This document shows, piece after piece, positions 9,645 through 64,000 of a stretch of 64,000 nucleotides of DNA (the stretch's first letter is position 1; the number at the start of each line of letters is the position of its first letter). The notes under the pieces are model-generated. The model worked only from the letters and a program-made list of their open reading frames with translations. It was not told the DNA's origin and searched no databases. Both the position numbers and the translations under genes were made by a program. Origin of the DNA: Bacteroidetes bacterium 47-18 (GTDB lineage Bacteria > Bacteroidota > Bacteroidia > Chitinophagales > Chitinophagaceae); assembly GCA_001897155.1 (NCBI GenBank), contig MKSF01000007.1, positions 92,457 through 156,456 on the forward strand. Direction: 5' to 3'.

Positions 9645-10299
9645 GGAACAGCTAAAAGCTAAGCTGGAAGAGCTGGAATCGGACCCGGAAGTAGCAGGGA
9701 TGCTGTCTTCAGGAGCGATCTGGGACAAGATAAGCCGGGCACAAAATCCGCTGCCGCAGAAAAGGCTATGGCTGCCGCGAATGGCTAAGATAGCGGCGGC
9801 GCTGGTGATATGTTCCGGTATCGCCCTGCTGCTGAGGCCCCGGCAGGAAAGCACAGGGCTGCTGACACAGGCGGTGGATCAGGCAGGGACCGGGAAGCCC
9901 CTGAAGGACAAGCCTGTATTGGAGCAGGCGCCGGATATTCCTGCTACAGCCGGTCTGCCGCCTGCCTTACGGAAGGAGCAGGCAGCTACCGGCCGCAAAG
10001 AAGCGCCTTCACCGGCCGGCAAGGTACAGCCCGTACCGGCGCACAGGGATGTTGCGGAACGGGTACCGGATTCTATCTATGTCTCTGTCGTACCCGAAAT
10101 ACAGGTCCCCCCGGAGGTAAGTGCCCCGGCCAGGCAAACGACGATAGTGTACCTGAGCGACCTGGAAAAAGAAACGCCTGCGGCGCCCGCACCCCGGAAA
10201 GCCCTGGCATCCAGTAAGACGCTGCGTTATATTGAAAGTAACCAGGGAGCATATACCTGTATTCCTCCTATGGTATTCCTGAACCAAATCTTAAAATAA
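9628..10299 (+). CDS. Single-pass membrane protein, probable partner of the sigma factor
   Basis: 223 residues. A cytoplasmic N-terminus of about 50 residues is followed by one transmembrane helix (MAKIAAALVICSGIALLLRP) and a Pro/Ala-rich periplasmic region. This is the topology of anti-sigma factors, but I see no zinc-binding anti-sigma motif, so the role is inferred from topology and the 17-base overlap with the sigma gene. The proline-rich middle (PAPRKA, PVPAHRD) is probably a disordered linker. The following gene starts 7 bases after the stop. Confidence 0.7.
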   Translation: MKDMFEEQLKAKLEELESDPEVAGMLSSGAIWDKISRAQNPLPQKRLWLPRMAKIAAALVICSGIALLLRPRQESTGLLTQAVDQAGTGKPLKDKPVLEQAPDIPATAGLPPALRKEQAATGRKEAPSPAGKVQPVPAHRDVAERVPDSIYVSVVPEIQVPPEVSAPARQTTIVYLSDLEKETPAAPAPRKALASSKTLRYIESNQGAYTCIPPMVFLNQILK

Positions 10300-10305
10300 A
10301 TAGCA

Positions 10306-11382
10306 ATGAATCTGAAAAAAATCCTGGCCGTGACCATATTCGGCCTGACCGGCACCTGCCTCTATGCGCAACAGACCCGTACCAATTTCATGCTTGATAC
10401 GGTGCAAAAAAGGATCACCCTGACCAAAGAGCTGCCCGGAAAAGGGAAAGCGATCGTACAGATGGCCTTTAAGGAAGACTGGCAGGGTGAAGCGGAAATG
10501 CAGCACCTGGCGACCCTTGCGGGTGATCAGCTCAAACGTTTGCAGCCTGATTTTAAAGATGCGCTGACGCAAAAGAAAGTATATATAGAGCTGCCCCAGG
10601 ATGAAAGCTATGTGAAGATCGCCTATGAAGAGATAGCCCCCGCTCATAGGGAGCTGGTCTATAAGGACAATGCCTATCACCCGCTCAAAACTATGCAGGA
10701 TTCGGTATTTATATTGAAGTCTTACGGCACATACTCCAAGCCGCTTACCTTATCGGATAATAAGGATACCCTCAGCCGTATGGTATTGTACACCTTTGTG
10801 GTCAATGACGTCAGCGCATTTGACAGGGAGCCTTTGCGTGACAGCATCGGGCGGGCCGCTTCGTCCTTTTCTGCCTATCTTAACGATCCCCGTCGCCAGC
10901 GGGCCTTGAATGCGGCAGGGAACAGCAGGCGTTTCATGCAGGATGTAGGTATCGGGCTGACCTATTTCAATGACCGCTTCGGCATAGCGATGGATGTCGG
11001 TTACGGGATATTATTCAACAAATACTCGCGCAATGCTTTCTTTGTAATGGGAAAAGTGGGAATGATCATGAATTACCGCTATCCTTTGTACCAATCCAAT
11101 ATGTACATGAACTATAACATTGAGTTCGGATCGGCTGATATGAGCACCAGCAGGGGCTTATGCAATAAATATTCGATTGGTTTCGGCTTTTTCCATGGGA
11201 ACTATGACTACGGGAATCATACCGTTACGCAGCAGATACCCAATATGGCCAGGATGTACATTAACCTGCCCGTTGCGGCCAAGCTTAATTTTGGACTGGA
11301 TCTCTATACCAATTTTATATTGAATAAGGATAATCCCAGGCAGGCGGCAATGATAGCGTTGTACCTGAAATACAATCTTTAA
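10306..11382 (+). CDS. Exported protein of unknown function in the sigma operon
   Basis: 358 residues with a signal peptide (MNLKKILAVTIFGLTGTCLYAQ). The N-terminal half is mixed and carries a lysine- and glutamate-rich globular segment; the C-terminal half (from about residue 205) has aromatic-rich alternating strands (YFNDRFGIAMDVGYGILF, MNYRYPLYQSNMYMNYN) that suggest an outer-membrane barrel. I do not recognise a family. It is the third gene of the ECF sigma operon and may be its main target or envelope sensor. A hairpin terminator lies 83 bases downstream. Confidence 0.7.
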   Translation: MNLKKILAVTIFGLTGTCLYAQQTRTNFMLDTVQKRITLTKELPGKGKAIVQMAFKEDWQGEAEMQHLATLAGDQLKRLQPDFKDALTQKKVYIELPQDESYVKIAYEEIAPAHRELVYKDNAYHPLKTMQDSVFILKSYGTYSKPLTLSDNKDTLSRMVLYTFVVNDVSAFDREPLRDSIGRAASSFSAYLNDPRRQRALNAAGNSRRFMQDVGIGLTYFNDRFGIAMDVGYGILFNKYSRNAFFVMGKVGMIMNYRYPLYQSNMYMNYNIEFGSADMSTSRGLCNKYSIGFGFFHGNYDYGNHTVTQQIPNMARMYINLPVAAKLNFGLDLYTNFILNKDNPRQAAMIALYLKYNL

Positions 11383-57610: not shown

Positions 57611-59911
57611 TCAGTCTGTCAGAAAAACAGCTACTTTGTCCCTTCTCAGCGATCTTACTTCCGGGTCCGGAGCTATGGCCAGCCGGAAGATGAACATGGG
57701 CTGCTCACCGCCGGGCAGTGGCACCAGTCGCCTGAAATGTTCCTGGAGCTGTTGCAGCGCCTGCCGGAATTCCGGTCCTAATTCCCGGTCTTCCGGGTCG
57801 TTGGCCCTTTCGCTGAGAAAGATGTACTGGGCGAATGGCTGTAAAGCGATGCCGGCTTTATTGGCTTCTATCCACAGCCGTTCCACCGCACGGCCGGTAT
57901 TCAGGTAGTCCAGGCCGGTATGATGCGGCATAGTGACGATACCGATAGCAGAGGCGCCGGCTATGGCCTTCCTGGCTATCTTTTTCATCCCCTTACCGCC
58001 GTCCACCGAACGGATAAAGCTGATGGCTTCCGGGTCGGCAGCCACTTTCAGCGCCAGGGTTTCGGCCTTGCTGACGCCCAGGGTCGCCACATCCATGCCA
58101 TCGCGCTTGGCCTCATTCTCTTCCGGCGTCCAGCGCAGCTCATTGACAAAGGTATCATAATGGCCGCGGGGGTGCAGCATGCGCAGCATCTCGGCGGTGG
58201 CCAGCACCTCTCCCAGCTGCTGTATGGCGGCGGGTTCGGTAATGAAATGTACCTTAGCGCCCTGATAGTCGCTAATGGCGGCTTCCAGGTCTTCATAGGC
58301 CGATGGCGGCAGCGGAACGCGTTCGCTGACGGTCCGGTTGGTCAGCCTCCGGGTGATGAAGGCTGCCACTTCCTGCCGGGAGCTGCCCTGCGGCGCCGGG
58401 CTAAAATCTGCTATTGCCACGAGGGTCCTGTTATCTTTTAAAGGGAAATATTGTATCTCCGTGTCATAACCTTCGGCACGTGCCTGCAGGCTGATATTTT
58501 CTATGGCAGCGCCGATGGACACATAAGAGCCCAGGTCCTTATGATCCAGCAGCGAGTAGGAGTAATACCGGTCGTGGAAGATATAGATCCTGCCGCCACG
58601 GTAGTAGAACTTCCAGGGCTGTGCATTGCCGCCCGAAGGTGCGGCTATGGCAGCATCAGCTATTTTCTGAAGTGTGCTTCCCGGAATATCCGCTGCCTGG
58701 CCCGGTGGCGGCAGCTGTGACATGGCTGCTTCCATAGTGGCTATATCTATCGGTGCGGGTGCTTCCTGCGCATAGTCCCTGGCAGTATTCCCGGTTGTTG
58801 CGGTACCGTCGCCTACCAGCGCTTCCAGGTCGATATAATACCGCCCGCTTTGATGGTACTGGTCCAGGAAGATACGGCGTACCACATCTGTGGTGACCGC
58901 GCCGCCCAGCACCACGGAAGATGCCAGTTGCGGCCAGGTATTGATGCTTTGCTCCACTTCCATCATGGAAGCCTTCATCCTGGTTGACAGGGTATCGGCG
59001 CCTACCATCTTCAGGATATAGGGTATCTTATCTTCGTTGCTGAGGTCCTTGATCTTTTCCGGGTTCAGGTCGCCGGCCAGGCCATGCAGAACGGGGCGGT
59101 CCGGCTCCAGGTCAAAGCGCTCCACATCCAGCATACCGCGGTCGTTGGTGTCCATCACTACGGGAATACCCATGGAGCGGGCCTTGAAGCGGCTGATGAT
59201 CTTGATGTCCAGCCCGTCGCACACTTCCACCAGCAGGTCTAAGGGTTTACCGTCATCAAAGAAGGTGTCTATATTATCCCGGGTCAGGCCGTCGCTGAAT
59301 ATTTTTACCTTAAGAAAAGGGTCTATTTCGGCGATCTCCCTGGCCGCTATGATCGTTTTAGGCAGTCCCAGGTTGTAGGTAGCGGTACGGATGCGGTTGA
59401 GGTTGCTGAGCTCGGCGGTATCGAAATCAGCGAGGCGGAGCTCGCCGCAGCTTCTTTCCATAGCCAGTGTCAGCGCGATGGATTGTCCTACGGACAGGCC
59501 TACGATCCCTACGATTCTGGTCTGCAGGGCCTGCTGTTCCGCGTCGGTGATCTTATAGCGGTTGCGGTTGGTACGTACGGTGACGAATTCCGCTTCATCC
59601 AGCAGGTGCACCATTTTGCGGTTCCAGGGAAAGTAGACCCACACCCCGTACTCATCGGCAGGGCGACCGTCCAGGTGCTGCCGTATCTTTTGTTCATAGT
59701 CTGCCGCGCTCAGCTTCTGCGCGGGGTGCAGGCATTTGACCAACTCTTTCAGTTGGCCTTCTATTTCATCGTAGAGAAAAGCCACCTCACCTGAAGCCAG
59801 CAGGTCTTCAAAAGCTTTTTTATCTGTTGACTGACCGAGCCGGAAGAAAACCGGGGTAGCGGAGGGGCGGGAAGTATGTCCGGACTGCCGCAGCATTTCG
59901 ATATTTTTCAA
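57611..59911 (-). CDS. Rv1355c-family fusion: E1-like (ThiF) and nitroreductase domains
   Basis: 766 residues. After about 100 residues of unique N-terminus, an E1-like Rossmann domain (about 130-370) has IVGLSVGQSIALTLA for ATP, the ADFDTAELSNLNR motif and LVEVCDGLDIKI. The catalytic cysteine usual for ubiquitin-like transfer is not obvious. The second half (about 415-766) is an FMN nitroreductase fold with DAAIAAPSGGNAQPWKF. The domain order matches Mycobacterium Rv1355c (called MoeY). E1-like domains adenylate carboxyl groups, so a role in modifying a small molecule is possible. It is the first gene of the four-gene operon. Confidence 0.85.
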   Translation of the reverse strand: MKNIEMLRQSGHTSRPSATPVFFRLGQSTDKKAFEDLLASGEVAFLYDEIEGQLKELVKCLHPAQKLSAADYEQKIRQHLDGRPADEYGVWVYFPWNRKMVHLLDEAEFVTVRTNRNRYKITDAEQQALQTRIVGIVGLSVGQSIALTLAMERSCGELRLADFDTAELSNLNRIRTATYNLGLPKTIIAAREIAEIDPFLKVKIFSDGLTRDNIDTFFDDGKPLDLLVEVCDGLDIKIISRFKARSMGIPVVMDTNDRGMLDVERFDLEPDRPVLHGLAGDLNPEKIKDLSNEDKIPYILKMVGADTLSTRMKASMMEVEQSINTWPQLASSVVLGGAVTTDVVRRIFLDQYHQSGRYYIDLEALVGDGTATTGNTARDYAQEAPAPIDIATMEAAMSQLPPPGQAADIPGSTLQKIADAAIAAPSGGNAQPWKFYYRGGRIYIFHDRYYSYSLLDHKDLGSYVSIGAAIENISLQARAEGYDTEIQYFPLKDNRTLVAIADFSPAPQGSSRQEVAAFITRRLTNRTVSERVPLPPSAYEDLEAAISDYQGAKVHFITEPAAIQQLGEVLATAEMLRMLHPRGHYDTFVNELRWTPEENEAKRDGMDVATLGVSKAETLALKVAADPEAISFIRSVDGGKGMKKIARKAIAGASAIGIVTMPHHTGLDYLNTGRAVERLWIEANKAGIALQPFAQYIFLSERANDPEDRELGPEFRQALQQLQEHFRRLVPLPGGEQPMFIFRLAIAPDPEVRSLRRDKVAVFLTD

Positions 59912-60394: not shown

Positions 60395-61417
60395 TCATTT
60401 TTCTGCTTGCATATACAACTTATTCATCTTTTCAATCCGCATTTTAATTTTCTTTTGCAGCAATCTTGGTGCTAACACCTTTATACTTTCGCCGAAGCCT
60501 AAGATCTCTCTTTCCAGTTCAAAATTCAAAACCACGTCTATACGAATGGTAATGCCCGTTTCGTCCTCTTTCAATAATTGTTGGGAAGTGTGAATAGGCT
60601 TGGTCAGTACATAAGGTGCATTGTATTTATTGACCCAGAGAATGATTTTATATGCTCTGTCTTTCTGCGTTTTGGTTACGCCGATTGTATCTTCAAAATA
60701 ACGCTCAAAATCCACGCCCGTATAGGGTTTGTAATCCTTTGGAGTCATTTCCATAAAGTCAATAATCCTGTCCAATGCCAAAGTAACCAAGGTTGTTCCC
60801 CTTTGCGGCACGGCAATCAGAAACCACCTGTTGCGGTATTCTTTCAGCAGGTAGGGAGAGTAAACAGACTGTCGGGCTTCGCTCGCCTTGAAAGATTTGT
60901 AATTGATGAGCAATGGGATTTTCTTTTTTATTGCCTGATACAATGGCAGAATATGCCCGATGCCTTTCAGCAATTTGTTGCCCTCAAGCTGAATGTAGTT
61001 GGCTGACTCATTGGCAGATTTGTTCAGACTGTTTTCCAAACGCGCGATAATGTCGTTCATATCATCGAAATAATCAAAACCGTTCATCTGCCGCAGCACA
61101 CTTACGATTTCATTCATCTTGTCAATGTCTGCGTCTGTTATTTTGGTGTGGTTGATGCTGTATTCGGCATCTTCGTAAATATAATACTTCTTCTCCTGCA
61201 CCACAATTGGCGCATTATAGCCGAGCTTATCGCTGCGCATGAGTTGTATATCTGCCTGAATGGTGCGTTTGCTCACACCCGTTGCGATGCCCTCATAATC
61301 ATACAAAGCATCAGCTACTTTCTCTATCAAATCTTCCAAAGTCCAGCATCGCAAACGGTTTTGCAGACATTGGTCTATGGTTTTGTAGCGGATAAGCGCC
61401 AATTTGTTTACAGCCAT
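60395..61417 (-). CDS. WYL-domain transcriptional regulator
   Basis: 340 residues. N-terminal winged helix (1-75: ALIRYKTIDQCLQN, LEDLIEKVADAL, VSKRTIQADIQLMR) and a C-terminal WYL domain (about 150-340) with KIPLLINYKSFKASEAR, SPYLLKEYRNRWFLIA and the WCX extension. WYL proteins bind nucleic-acid or nucleotide ligands and control defence and RNA/DNA-damage genes. Divergent from the structured RNA array and the RING/TerD-like gene, it is the likely regulator of both. The codon use is more AT-rich than that of the flanking chromosome. Confidence 0.92.
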   Translation of the reverse strand: MAVNKLALIRYKTIDQCLQNRLRCWTLEDLIEKVADALYDYEGIATGVSKRTIQADIQLMRSDKLGYNAPIVVQEKKYYIYEDAEYSINHTKITDADIDKMNEIVSVLRQMNGFDYFDDMNDIIARLENSLNKSANESANYIQLEGNKLLKGIGHILPLYQAIKKKIPLLINYKSFKASEARQSVYSPYLLKEYRNRWFLIAVPQRGTTLVTLALDRIIDFMEMTPKDYKPYTGVDFERYFEDTIGVTKTQKDRAYKIILWVNKYNAPYVLTKPIHTSQQLLKEDETGITIRIDVVLNFELEREILGFGESIKVLAPRLLQKKIKMRIEKMNKLYMQAEK

Positions 61418-61465: not shown

Positions 61466-61492
61466 AATCTGCGCAATACATCTGCGCAGATT
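61466..61492. promoter_or_regulatory. TGCGCA dyad upstream of the WYL promoter
   Basis: Arms AATCTGCGCA (61466-61475) and TGCGCAGATT (61483-61492), perfect, seven-base spacer. It is directly upstream of the WYL -33 element. Confidence 0.6.
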
Positions 61493-61580
61493 TTATTTTT
61501 TACTCCTAAGAAGAATATTTTTGAAAATTTATAGTCAATTCTGTAAAGGGTTTCAGGCATTTCTTTAAAATTTTATTCTA

Positions 61581-61618
61581 CTGCGCAATTCTGCTGCACA
61601 CTGCGCATAGCATCTTTG
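61581..61618 (+). promoter_or_regulatory. Probable promoter of the RNA array with paired TGCGCA sites
   Basis: CATCTTTG (61611-61618) is a one-mismatch -7 box. Two CTGCGCA copies (61581-61587, 61601-61607), 20 bases apart, replace the -33 region, suggesting an activator-dependent promoter. Transcription would start near 61625. Confidence 0.5.
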
Positions 61619-61642: not shown

Positions 61643-61676
61643 AGACCTATAAGGTATCGCAAAACCTTATGGGTCT
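61643..61676 (+). ncRNA. Leading hairpin of the RNA array
   Basis: 12-bp stem AGACCTATAAGG / CCTTATGGGTCT (one wobble) with ten-base loop, about 20 bases after the predicted transcription start. No T run follows, so it is not a terminator. It probably forms the 5' end of the array transcript. Confidence 0.55.
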
Positions 61677-61727
61677 AAACAGGGCAAGAATCAACAAAGA
61701 AGCTCTTTAAAATATTCAAAAATATTT

Positions 61728-61790
61728 CGGTCAAGTATAAGATACTTCATACTCAACTTCCAATTGAATCATTCTCTTATACCATTACCG
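61728..61790 (+). ncRNA. GGTCAA-type RNA unit 1
   Basis: Outer stem CGGT (61728-61731) / ACCG (61787-61790), internal loop CAA opposite CATT, inner 8-bp stem GTATAAGA (61735-61742) / TCTTATAC (61775-61782), then TACTTC opening a 32-base loop. The same fold, with different paired bases, occurs four more times in the next 420 bases. Confidence 0.75.
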
Positions 61791-61796
61791 AAACTC

Positions 61797-61915
61797 GGGG
61801 CAGTAGCTCAGTTGGTAGAGCAGGACAATCTTTTAATTACCTTATTCGGGTCAAAACAGGATTTACTTCTGCACTTTTAATGCCCGTGTCGTAGGTTCGA
61901 ATCCTACCTGCCCCG
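61797..61915 (+). ncRNA. tRNA-Lys(UUU)-shaped RNA with 46-nt insert carrying unit 2
   Basis: Acceptor GGGGCAG / CTGCCCC (7 bp), TA, D-arm GCTC/GAGC, anticodon stem GGACA / TGCCC (4 of 5 pairs), variable GTGTC, T-arm GTAGG-TTCGAAT-CCTAC, discriminator G, no encoded CCA. The seven bases before the 3' anticodon strand are CTTTTAA, a standard lysine loop. Between GGACA and this loop lie 46 extra bases (61828-61873). They hold a permuted GGTCAA unit: AATCTTTT (61827-61834), AATT, ACCT, loop, GGGT, CAAA, ACAGGATT (61856-61863), TACTTC. Without the insert the gene would be a near-normal tRNA-Lys. Confidence 0.75.
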
Positions 61916-61923
61916 CAAAAAAT

Positions 61924-62042
61924 GGAACAGTAGCTCAGTGGTTAGAGCACTATAATAAAGATTTGTCATTATCTCAAAAGGTCAAATAAATCTTACTTCC
62001 TTGCGCATATAGCGGTCGCGGGTTCGAGTCCCGCCTGTTCCA
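61924..62042 (+). ncRNA. tRNA-shaped RNA with 46-nt insert carrying unit 3
   Basis: Acceptor GGAACAG / CTGTTCC, D-arm GCTC/GAGC, perfect anticodon stem CTATA (61950-61954) / TATAG (62008-62012), variable CGGTC, T-arm GCGGG-TTCGAGT-CCCGC, discriminator A, no encoded CCA. The seven bases TTGCGCA before TATAG would be the anticodon loop (anticodon GCG if used). The 46 bases before them (61955-62000) hold a permuted unit: AGATTTGT, CATT, ATCT, tetraloop CAAA, AGGT, CAA, ATAAATCT, TACTTC; the 8-bp stem has one wobble. Confidence 0.75.
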
Positions 62043-62054
62043 CAAACAAAAAAA

Positions 62055-62135
62055 TGGTCAAGTATAGCTTACTTCAATATGGGTAATCGCCCAATGGCGA
62101 AGAGGTTCGAATCCTTAAAAGCTATACCATTATCA
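62055..62135 (+). ncRNA. GGTCAA-type RNA unit 4 with mini-tRNA in its loop
   Basis: Outer stem TGGT (62055-62058) / ATCA (62132-62135, one wobble), internal loop CAA opposite CATT, inner stem GTATAGCT (62062-62069) / AGCTATAC (62120-62127), then TACTTC. The loop holds a 5-bp arm TCGCC-caat-GGCGA (62087-62100) and a T-arm-like GAGG-TTCGAAT-CCTT (62102-62116): a tRNA-like body without anticodon arm. Confidence 0.75.
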
Positions 62136-62140
62136 AACCT

Positions 62141-62205
62141 AAAGGTCAATTATCGCTTACTTCAGCTATCCTTTTAAGACAGACGACAGCGATAAAATTA
62201 CCTTT
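62141..62205 (+). ncRNA. GGTCAA-type RNA unit 5
   Basis: Outer stem AAAGGT (62141-62146) / ACCTTT (62200-62205), internal loop CAA opposite AATT, inner stem TTATCGCT (62150-62157) / AGCGATAA (62188-62195), then TACTTC and a 24-base loop. It ends 16 bases before the start codon of the next gene, so it may also influence translation. Confidence 0.75.
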
Positions 62206-62221
62206 TAAAAACAAATAAAAA

Positions 62222-63997
62222 ATGAATAACGAACTATTGAAAATCGCTATCCGCTACAATGCGGTTTATGTGGAAAACGTACAGTCTGTAACAGCTAAAA
62301 CCATTAGGCAACCTGCGGCTAATCTGGCTGCCAACCTAAACAAAATCGGTTATACCGTTAGTGAGGATTTGCTGCATCAGCTTAATTTTATGACCGCTCA
62401 GCAACTGTTGGCTATTTACGAAGCGTTTGTAGATGTGTTGCAAATCAAAAACAACTGGAATCCTTTGGTAAAAGGTTGGGATATTCCTACCCTTGAAACG
62501 AGGGAAGACCATTGGTTTACCTTTATCGCCAATATTTTCAAAAATCCGAAAGGTGTAACGCTGGCTTGCGGACACCTGATACCCGAAAATACTTTTGCTC
62601 TGGAAAGATACAACGGTTGTCCGTTTTGCGGTACGCCTTTCGAGCTGAATGATGCGGTGTATCTGTCGCAGGGTTCTAAAATGAAAGAGCTGGCTTTGTG
62701 GGAAGATGAGGACGCGCAAGCGGTTTTGAACAATTTACTGGCTTCCAAAACAGCTTTGGACGCTACGCAGATTGACACGCTGAAAGTGCTGTTGCGCTAT
62801 TTCGATATTCCAGATGTGGCTATCGGAATGAAAGAAACAATGGTTGTGGTGGCAGATGCCTTGAAAGAAGCCGGAAAGGCAGAGCAGGCAAGCGTTTTGT
62901 TTACATCGCCTGTTGATATTATGCGCTACTTGTGGTATAAGCATACGGGATTTTTGCAGTTGATAGAGCCGAAAACCATTCTGAAAAGAATAGCGAACAA
63001 CAACCGCCATATGCTTCCGTTTCTGGATACGGCAAGGCAATCTCAAAAAACTGCCGAAGCTGTTTTGAAATTGAAATACTCCCGTTCGGAATCTAAAATA
63101 GTGGTGCAATGGTTGAACAATCTGCCGATGAATACGGAGCAATCCGCTATATTGATGCACCCTAAAAGAGCGATGTGGGTTCGGTTTATCCGTGCTTTGC
63201 GCCTGGCAGAGTACAGCAAACAGAAAGGCATGGAAAAGCTGAAAGAGTTGCTGGACGTGTTTTACAATCAGTTGTACGAAGTGCCTGCGGGCGTTATTGA
63301 GCATTACCGTTTGAAAGCAGATGCCGAGAAAACATTTGCTTTGCTGCAAGCCCGTCCAAGTATGTTTGCACGTTCTTTGTTTGCCAATATGTTGTGGTTC
63401 GGAGCAGCAGAAACCTTGTCGGCATTCTCGGCAGTCGCCGATAAGATTCCTGCAAGATTGTTGTTCACGCTGAATAGCTATGCAAAGAATTATTTTGACA
63501 GAACGCAAAACAGAATCGTAAAACCTTTGGGCGGAACAAACAAAACAATCAAAGCAAACCGCTTGCTGGAATTGTACACCGACGCGCAGCTGCAGGCAAT
63601 GATTGATGCGGTGGAAGATATGTGTCTGCACGAAATGGAAAGACGTTATGCTTCCGTTGAAAATGAAAACAAAACCATTTTCATCGACAAATCCCTGTTC
63701 TATATGCCTATTCCAATCGGCGACAGGGCAGCGTCTGTTCAGAATTTGCCCGTAGCACTAATGGGTACACATTTTCCTTTGGAGGGCAATGCCGTAAGGT
63801 TGTTTATGCAGTGGGGTAAAGGTATGAAAGCACAACATCTGGACATGGATTTGAGCTGTCTGATTGCTTACGACGACAAAATGGATAATTGCAGTTACTA
63901 TAATTTGTCCACCACAGGTGCAAGACATTCGGGCGATATTCGTTCCATTCCGAATGATGTGTGTAAGTGTAAGCTCACCTTGACTACTAACGATTAA
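62222..63997 (+). CDS. MXAN_6230/SCO0854-type protein: zinc finger and TerD-like domain, C-terminus apparently cut
   Basis: 591 residues. The N-terminal module (VYVENVQSV, LNKIGYTVSEDLLHQL, EDHWFTFIANIF) leads to a four-ligand zinc site C116-x-H118...C133-x2-C136, a reduced RING-like finger. A long helical region (160-480) follows. The last part (about 520-590) is TerD-like, with LDMDLSCLIAYDDK and YYNLSTTGARHSGDIR. The TerD domain should continue for some 80 residues after SGD, but the frame stops after VCKCKLTLTTND, so a frameshift, insertion or intron near 63957-63997 is likely. The family occurs with tellurite/stress and RNA-repair genes. AT-rich codons. Confidence 0.8.
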   Translation: MNNELLKIAIRYNAVYVENVQSVTAKTIRQPAANLAANLNKIGYTVSEDLLHQLNFMTAQQLLAIYEAFVDVLQIKNNWNPLVKGWDIPTLETREDHWFTFIANIFKNPKGVTLACGHLIPENTFALERYNGCPFCGTPFELNDAVYLSQGSKMKELALWEDEDAQAVLNNLLASKTALDATQIDTLKVLLRYFDIPDVAIGMKETMVVVADALKEAGKAEQASVLFTSPVDIMRYLWYKHTGFLQLIEPKTILKRIANNNRHMLPFLDTARQSQKTAEAVLKLKYSRSESKIVVQWLNNLPMNTEQSAILMHPKRAMWVRFIRALRLAEYSKQKGMEKLKELLDVFYNQLYEVPAGVIEHYRLKADAEKTFALLQARPSMFARSLFANMLWFGAAETLSAFSAVADKIPARLLFTLNSYAKNYFDRTQNRIVKPLGGTNKTIKANRLLELYTDAQLQAMIDAVEDMCLHEMERRYASVENENKTIFIDKSLFYMPIPIGDRAASVQNLPVALMGTHFPLEGNAVRLFMQWGKGMKAQHLDMDLSCLIAYDDKMDNCSYYNLSTTGARHSGDIRSIPNDVCKCKLTLTTND

Positions 63998-64000
63998 AAG

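Follow-up and report, generated by a model that had tools for sequence, protein, structure and literature searches.

Among described systems, the closest to the locus reported here are the bacterial Y RNAs with their Ro60-type proteins: the Salmonella RNA repair operon rsr-yrlBA-rtcBA is described in PMC7790460 as triggered by cleaved tRNA, and TROVE proteins together with a tRNA-like partner are described in a review as a platform for repairing RNA (PMC7824862). We analyzed a 64,000-nt stretch of the Bacteroidetes bacterium 47-18 genome (contig MKSF01000007.1, positions 92,457 to 156,456; hereafter the window), in which an array of five structured RNA units lies between a divergent gene for a WYL regulator and a gene encoding a RING domain, a Ro60-like helical domain and a TerD domain (the RING/TerD gene). 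Our results make it probable that the units are stems by which a variant family of bacterial Y RNAs binds protein; they are predicted to be carried on one leader transcript and bound by the product of the adjacent gene.

All five GGTCAA...TACTTC strands listed by the initial annotation are present (61729-62163), and each has the complement claimed for it, followed by (C/A)ATTA(C/T)C; the imperfect one, in unit 2, forms six of eight pairs. The 8-nt spacing between GGTCAA and TACTTC, claimed for every unit, holds for four of them and is 9 nt in unit 2. The complement lies downstream of the strand in units 1, 4 and 5 and upstream in units 2 and 3, and since its side varies, the units represent two topologies of one two-strand module. 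This module consists of P1 (GGU/ACC), an internal loop (CAA/NAUU) and the 8-bp stem P2 followed by UACUUC. It is conserved, it covaries, and it comes in two circular permutations, one a hairpin and the other an insertion into a tRNA body at the anticodon arm. The elements GGUCAA, UACUNC and NAUUAYC are conserved, and the 8-nt distance was recovered in 141 of 144 exact strand-A (GGTCAA...TACTTC) sites by a scan with free spacing.

Fixed loops with changing but paired stems had been taken as a sign of a selected RNA structure, for which five units of one genome alone are thin covariation evidence; alignments of relatives, proposed as a check, bear the claim out, covariation being clear in 28 hairpin and 32 tRNA-embedded units. 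In the hairpin alignment, from which the covariance model R1 was built, 88.8% of cells are paired against 61.1% (sd 1.8) in shuffles and at most 50.4% in slid registers, both sides vary in all eight P2 pairs, and the covariation score is 0.708 against 0.207 in shuffles; kinship of the sequences inflates such scores and is retained in the slid-register control. In the tRNA-embedded alignment the paired fraction is 96.5% against 84.2% (sd 0.6), with 99.6% in the acceptor stem, 100% in each of the D and T stems and 90.2% in P2.

The two tRNA bodies that hold units 2 and 3 were absent from the earlier description. In both, the acceptor, D and T arms are complete and the D and T loops bear their signatures; the bodies are whole and non-permuted, and in the window as well as in relatives the RF00005 matches are split by the unit. 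The unit is an insertion at the anticodon arm, with 53 positions between the anticodon-stem strands in place of the seven in the tRNA model. In the second body the stem CTATA/TATAG is intact, and the first contains GCA-CTTTTAA-TGC (61871-61883), a Lys(UUU)-type anticodon loop. In 18 of the 32 tRNA-embedded cases the 27-31/39-43 anticodon stem is kept (4-5 pairs; 11% in a mispaired-row control), with the unit in its loop and without a local hairpin. Eight others, including the first body of the window, carry a 7-nt loop with a stem of 3 bp or more directly 3' of the unit, so that the unit branches off the side of the anticodon stem; two of the eight also score four pairs in the 27-31/39-43 stem. 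Six cases have neither arrangement. In one relative (L007:7446-7514) the array also contains a tRNA-shaped sequence without a unit, to which ARAGORN assigns a two-base anticodon.

Parts of tRNAs are also displayed by the hairpins. The loop of unit 1 contains CAA-CTTCCAA-TTG (61754-61766), the exact anticodon loop of tRNA-Gly(UCC), and that of unit 4 bears a T-arm-like hairpin, GAGGTTCGAATCCTT (62102-62116). A T-arm motif occurs in 18 of 116 hairpin loops. Of the 96 loops without it, 12 contain, on a stem of 3 bp or more, a 7-nt loop identical to the anticodon loop of an actual tRNA (Leu, Pro, Trp, Lys, Asp, Gly and Asn), as do six of 35 3' flanks of tRNA-embedded units (Arg, Lys and Met); the majority of loops have no exact match. 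The reference comprised 26 loops from ARAGORN tRNAs of the fetched loci after removal of six odd ones. Shuffled loops gave means of 0.34 matches for hairpin loops and 0.06 for 3' flanks, and permuted loop sets gave 0.28-0.36 and 0.07-0.09, the observed counts never being reached in 500 trials; when the 7-mers themselves were dinucleotide-shuffled, the means (7.8 and 4.1) were not separated from the observed counts.

At Rfam thresholds the initial annotation was right to know no named motif: the YrlA model RF02553 reaches 26.5 bits in the window (E 0.0024), below its gathering score of 69, by a match from the T arm of the first tRNA body to the D arm of the second. In architecture, however, the unit has its 8-bp stem with UACUUC in common with Y RNAs at TROVE loci of the phylum. 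TROVE genes were found in 23 of 296 phylum genomes and gave no match in the own genome; a single genome (G474) carries both a TROVE system and a unit array system. In a sample of 15 TROVE loci (L100-L114), TACTTC sites lie behind the TROVE gene in 13 (none in L101 and L108), amounting to 60 sites in 12.8 kb against a mean of 3.6 (most 13) for shuffled hexamers, and 31 sites have a perfect 8-bp stem against a mean of 0.34. The consensus from these 31 units, picked by a loose pattern, is GGTGYYGTA-8-N-TACTTCG ... P2'-GNNTGTTRCC. The TROVE-linked RNAs have the order stem, T arm, acceptor, D arm, stem, and the tRNA-embedded RNAs acceptor, D arm, stem, T arm, acceptor; judged by sequence, both appear to follow the same circular order opened at different points. 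Matches scoring below gathering were obtained with the Rfam models for YrlA or Deinococcus Y RNA in 13 of the 15 loci (all except L104 and L108), and an improved family model for the tandem Y RNA arrays behind TROVE genes seems possible. R1 did not match the TROVE-linked Y RNAs, and the two are therefore distinct kinds of RNA. Because the 8-bp stem with UACUUC is common to RNAs beside Ro60 genes, the array RNAs are likely parts of a Ro60-like particle. At L108:698-779, beside a TROVE gene without the usual Y array, a Flavo-1 RNA was found (62.3 bits).

In the 3.87 Mb own genome, the exact 8-nt pattern occurs four times and R1 matches three times, always within the array and with no further match outside it. 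The RING/TerD-family gene was found in 27 contigs titled Bacteroidota or Campylobacterota, in 14 of 195 family genomes (own genome and one fragment counted) and in 11 of 395 phylum genomes (own counted), yielding 51 loci (27 + 14 + 10), two of them, L010 and L083, near-identical. Within 1.5 kb upstream of the gene the scanner found 173 strand-A sites. A partner strand was assigned to 172, of which 126 are of the hairpin and 46 of the tRNA-embedded type, with doubt attaching to 11 long-range assignments. Homologous units, sought as proposed initially, are thus present in 47 of the 51 loci; R1 adds units in L023 and L025, while L027 and L032 have none by either method. R1 gave 67 matches in the window and the 27 loci, 64 of them upstream of the gene; two lie downstream of it in L029 from Campylobacterota (10264-10401; 32.3 and 21.9 bits) and one, in L009, far from it on the minus strand (22.8 bits). 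A further 23 genomes that carry the gene gave 67 R1 hits, every one of them about 1 kb or less upstream of it and on its strand.

In a class-level survey R1 units were detected in four of 247 genomes, solely beside the gene in three (G000, G213 and G781); G676 has units beside the gene and also an intergenic site (L115:2940-3160, G676:C222) with a hairpin and a tRNA-embedded unit, where no gene copy was present in the 6 kb read. Among order-level genomes with MXAN_6230-type matches, units were found in six of ten, with 16 hits in all, of which 13 lie next to the gene match; in the fragmented genome G867, three matches (C250:10867-11473, L127) are on a different contig from the gene match. Plasmid relatives in Hymenobacter and Segatella have both units and a split tRNA, and no units were found beside the gene in distant relatives from Variovorax, Streptomyces and Niallia (one each). 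The association with WYL and TerD-like genes that the initial annotation proposed to look for stands for the RING/TerD gene and, for the WYL regulator, in part of the loci only (19 of 50 by tblastn). By the same search rtcB, the gene for the RNA ligase, is near 13 of 50 copies; since many loci span merely 4-5 kb, these counts are minima, and the contig of the window stops short of where rtcB could be visible.

The window copy of the protein has 591 aa and is cut by the contig end, which is also the window end; complete relatives have about 745 aa, and the nearest relatives of the protein belong to Bacteroidota. At 63960-64000 the terminal residues of the frame fail to align, probably an assembly end effect. 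Structure prediction gives the middle helical domain a Ro60-like fold; the Pfam profiles for TROVE/Ro60 (PF05731; hhalign 0.1%) and vWA do not match. The NF041916 profile (MXAN_6230/SCO0854) reaches 132.8 bits, best at residues 356-696, with a curated cut-off of 600. Among 7999 candidates scored, 3481 are relatives at E <=0.001, mostly unnamed or 'hypothetical'. In Flavobacterium jejuense, Endonuclease V-like and bpX4 (MoxR-vWA-beta-propeller system) genes lie downstream of the gene (L009:11844-12973).

Table 1. Features of the array and its surroundings (window positions).
Feature	Position	Strand	Type and evidence
WYL/WCX-domain transcriptional regulator	60395..61417	-	Pfam WYL 37.4 bits, WCX 40.3 bits; divergent to array
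Palindrome CTGCGCA-N7-TGCGCAG	61469..61489	.	sequence; perfect copy
AnnTTTG	61612..61618	+	sequence; candidate promoter box
Unit 1	61725..61793	+	hairpin type; R1 56.0 bits
tRNA-shaped sequence 1	61797..61915	+	split by unit 2; Rfam RF00005 49.2 bits
Unit 2	61827..61869	+	tRNA-embedded type, complement first; 6/8 pairs
tRNA-shaped sequence 2	61924..62042	+	split by unit 3 in anticodon loop; RF00005 55.9 bits
Unit 3	61959..61999	+	tRNA-embedded type; 8/8 pairs
Unit 4	62052..62138	+	hairpin type; R1 44.6 bits
Unit 5	62140..62206	+	hairpin type; R1 57.1 bits
RING - Ro60-like helical domain - TerD gene, 5' part	62222..63997	+	cut by contig end; full relatives about 745 aa

The palindrome (Table 1) is likely the operator of the WYL regulator. 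Upstream of the first unit and no more than 250 nt from it, a TRCGYA-N5-8-TRCGYA element occurs in 34 of 45 loci, against 10 of 535 control stretches (the window's own palindrome lies just beyond this limit), and in many loci the palindrome is about 31 nt from an AnnTTTG box, which we take to be a candidate -7 box of a Bacteroidota-type promoter. The box, present in 38 of 45 loci and also in 213 of 535 control stretches, is weak by itself. Ahead of unit 1, GCTCTTTA (61702-61709) is boxA-like; such a match is found in only 10 of 45 loci. The final conserved base of unit 5 (62202) is 19 nt upstream of the RING/TerD start codon, and in 37 of 44 loci the last hairpin ends 17-35 nt before the protein match begins. 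The WYL-array intergenic region also contains an imperfect CTGCGCA palindrome (61580-61609), and the presumed leader starts with a strong hairpin outside the unit family (AGACCTATAAGGT...ACCTTATGGGTCT, 61643-61676). A fusion of ThiF (E1-like) and nitroreductase is encoded at 57611-59911 on the minus strand, and on a Variovorax plasmid (L120) a distant RING finger family 4 relative is near a divergent rtcR regulator.

The placement of the array could also mean that it is a cis-acting leader only, whose units fold in the 5' UTR (untranslated region) and govern how the RING/TerD gene is elongated in transcription or translated, for instance through autoregulation by the protein or by the sensing of tRNAs that are uncharged or cleaved. 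The position of all 67 R1 hits in 23 genomes directly upstream of the gene, and the 17-35 nt between last hairpin and start codon in 19 of the 23 loci whose start codon was located, fit this explanation, which we nevertheless consider improbable: such a leader needs no whole tRNA bodies with paired acceptor stems, units occur at the intergenic site of G676, where the 6 kb read holds no gene copy, and in G867 on another contig than the gene match, two matches (one weak) follow the gene in L029, and the Y RNAs linked to TROVE genes are encoded downstream of them. The interruption of tRNAs at the anticodon arm, the 7-nt loop just 3' of the unit in eight of 32 cases and the proximity of rtcB would likewise suit units 2 and 3 being protein-spliced bacterial introns of real tRNA genes, excised and joined by RtcB. 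This is very improbable, given that the insertion point varies as described above, that three of the five window units are in the reverse order with no tRNA to splice, and that ARAGORN calls neither split tRNA of the window, both lacking a normal anticodon arm. Moreover, the bodies mostly share the CAG/CTG acceptor base, and even the best own-genome tRNA agrees at no more than 47 of about 62 aligned positions (27 distinct tRNAs compared, drawn from 30 of 55 hits).

Conserved unpaired nucleotides in an internal loop, the 8-nt spacing and permuted topologies would also fit a new self-cleaving or otherwise catalytic RNA, circularly permuted like small ribozymes, and RtcB joins ends of the type that a self-cleaving ribozyme would leave. 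We give this hardly any credence, as an Rfam search of the window matched no ribozyme, linkage to one protein family is strict, and the 8-bp stem with UACUUC recurs in Y RNAs beside Ro60 genes, whose known role is protein binding.

If the units are Y RNA-type protein-binding stems, the array is predicted to be transcribed as one leader RNA, the helical domain may form a Ro60-type ring gripping the module, and the WYL regulator may turn on the whole set upon tRNA breakage. The array would then likely provide a Ro60-like particle with tRNA mimics as part of a repair response linked to RtcB, and the particle is predicted to help cells cope with broken tRNAs. The mimics could occupy or tether tRNA-acting enzymes, either as decoys for anticodon nucleases or as adaptors for RtcB and decay enzymes, as suggested for YrlA, while the final unit, next to the start codon, may enable the protein to regulate its own translation. 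A bolder version, which we regard as rather unlikely, is a second Ro60-like ribonucleoprotein lineage whose leader is a bait array, giving the cell an immunity, based on RNA, to tRNA-cutting toxins and phage defences. The baits would bear anticodon loops of Gly, Lys, Leu, Pro, Trp, Asn, Asp, Arg and Met across loci, whole tRNAs would use the anticodon arm as a protein handle, and the RING/Ro60-like/TerD protein would, together with RtcB, sense cuts by anticodon nucleases and repair them on the spot.

The favoured reading, Y RNA-type stems bound by the adjacent protein, implies a compact, widespread and differently built Y RNA-type system, in which a Ro60-like predicted fold is joined to RING and TerD domains, Y-type stems are grafted on whole true-order tRNAs, and some hairpins bear real anticodon loops. 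It would make the question of decoy versus adaptor directly testable and would suggest a role for a large, mostly unnamed protein family. The proteins of the MXAN_6230/SCO0854 family (NF041916) show profile similarity, yet the window protein is far under that family's cut-off. With rsr-yrlBA-rtcBA, as presented in PMC7790460, the locus shares the close grouping of a (here predicted) Ro60-type protein with tRNA-like noncoding RNAs and, in part of the relatives, RtcB; it differs in having a WYL regulator instead of RtcR and in its Ro-like protein, which, unlike Ro60/Rsr, has no Pfam TROVE or vWA match. Like bacterial Y RNAs (YrlA, RF02553; Deinococcus, RF01053; L100-L114), the units have an 8-bp stem followed by UACUUC, a P1 that is often GGU/ACC, tRNA-like arms on the stem and a tandem arrangement. 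However, their internal loop is CAA/NAUU and not GYYGUA/GNNUGUU as in TROVE-linked Y RNAs, the array precedes its gene whereas TROVE-linked Y RNAs follow theirs, and the tRNA bodies retain the true tRNA order with a free acceptor end, of which the YrlA order appears to be a circular permutant.
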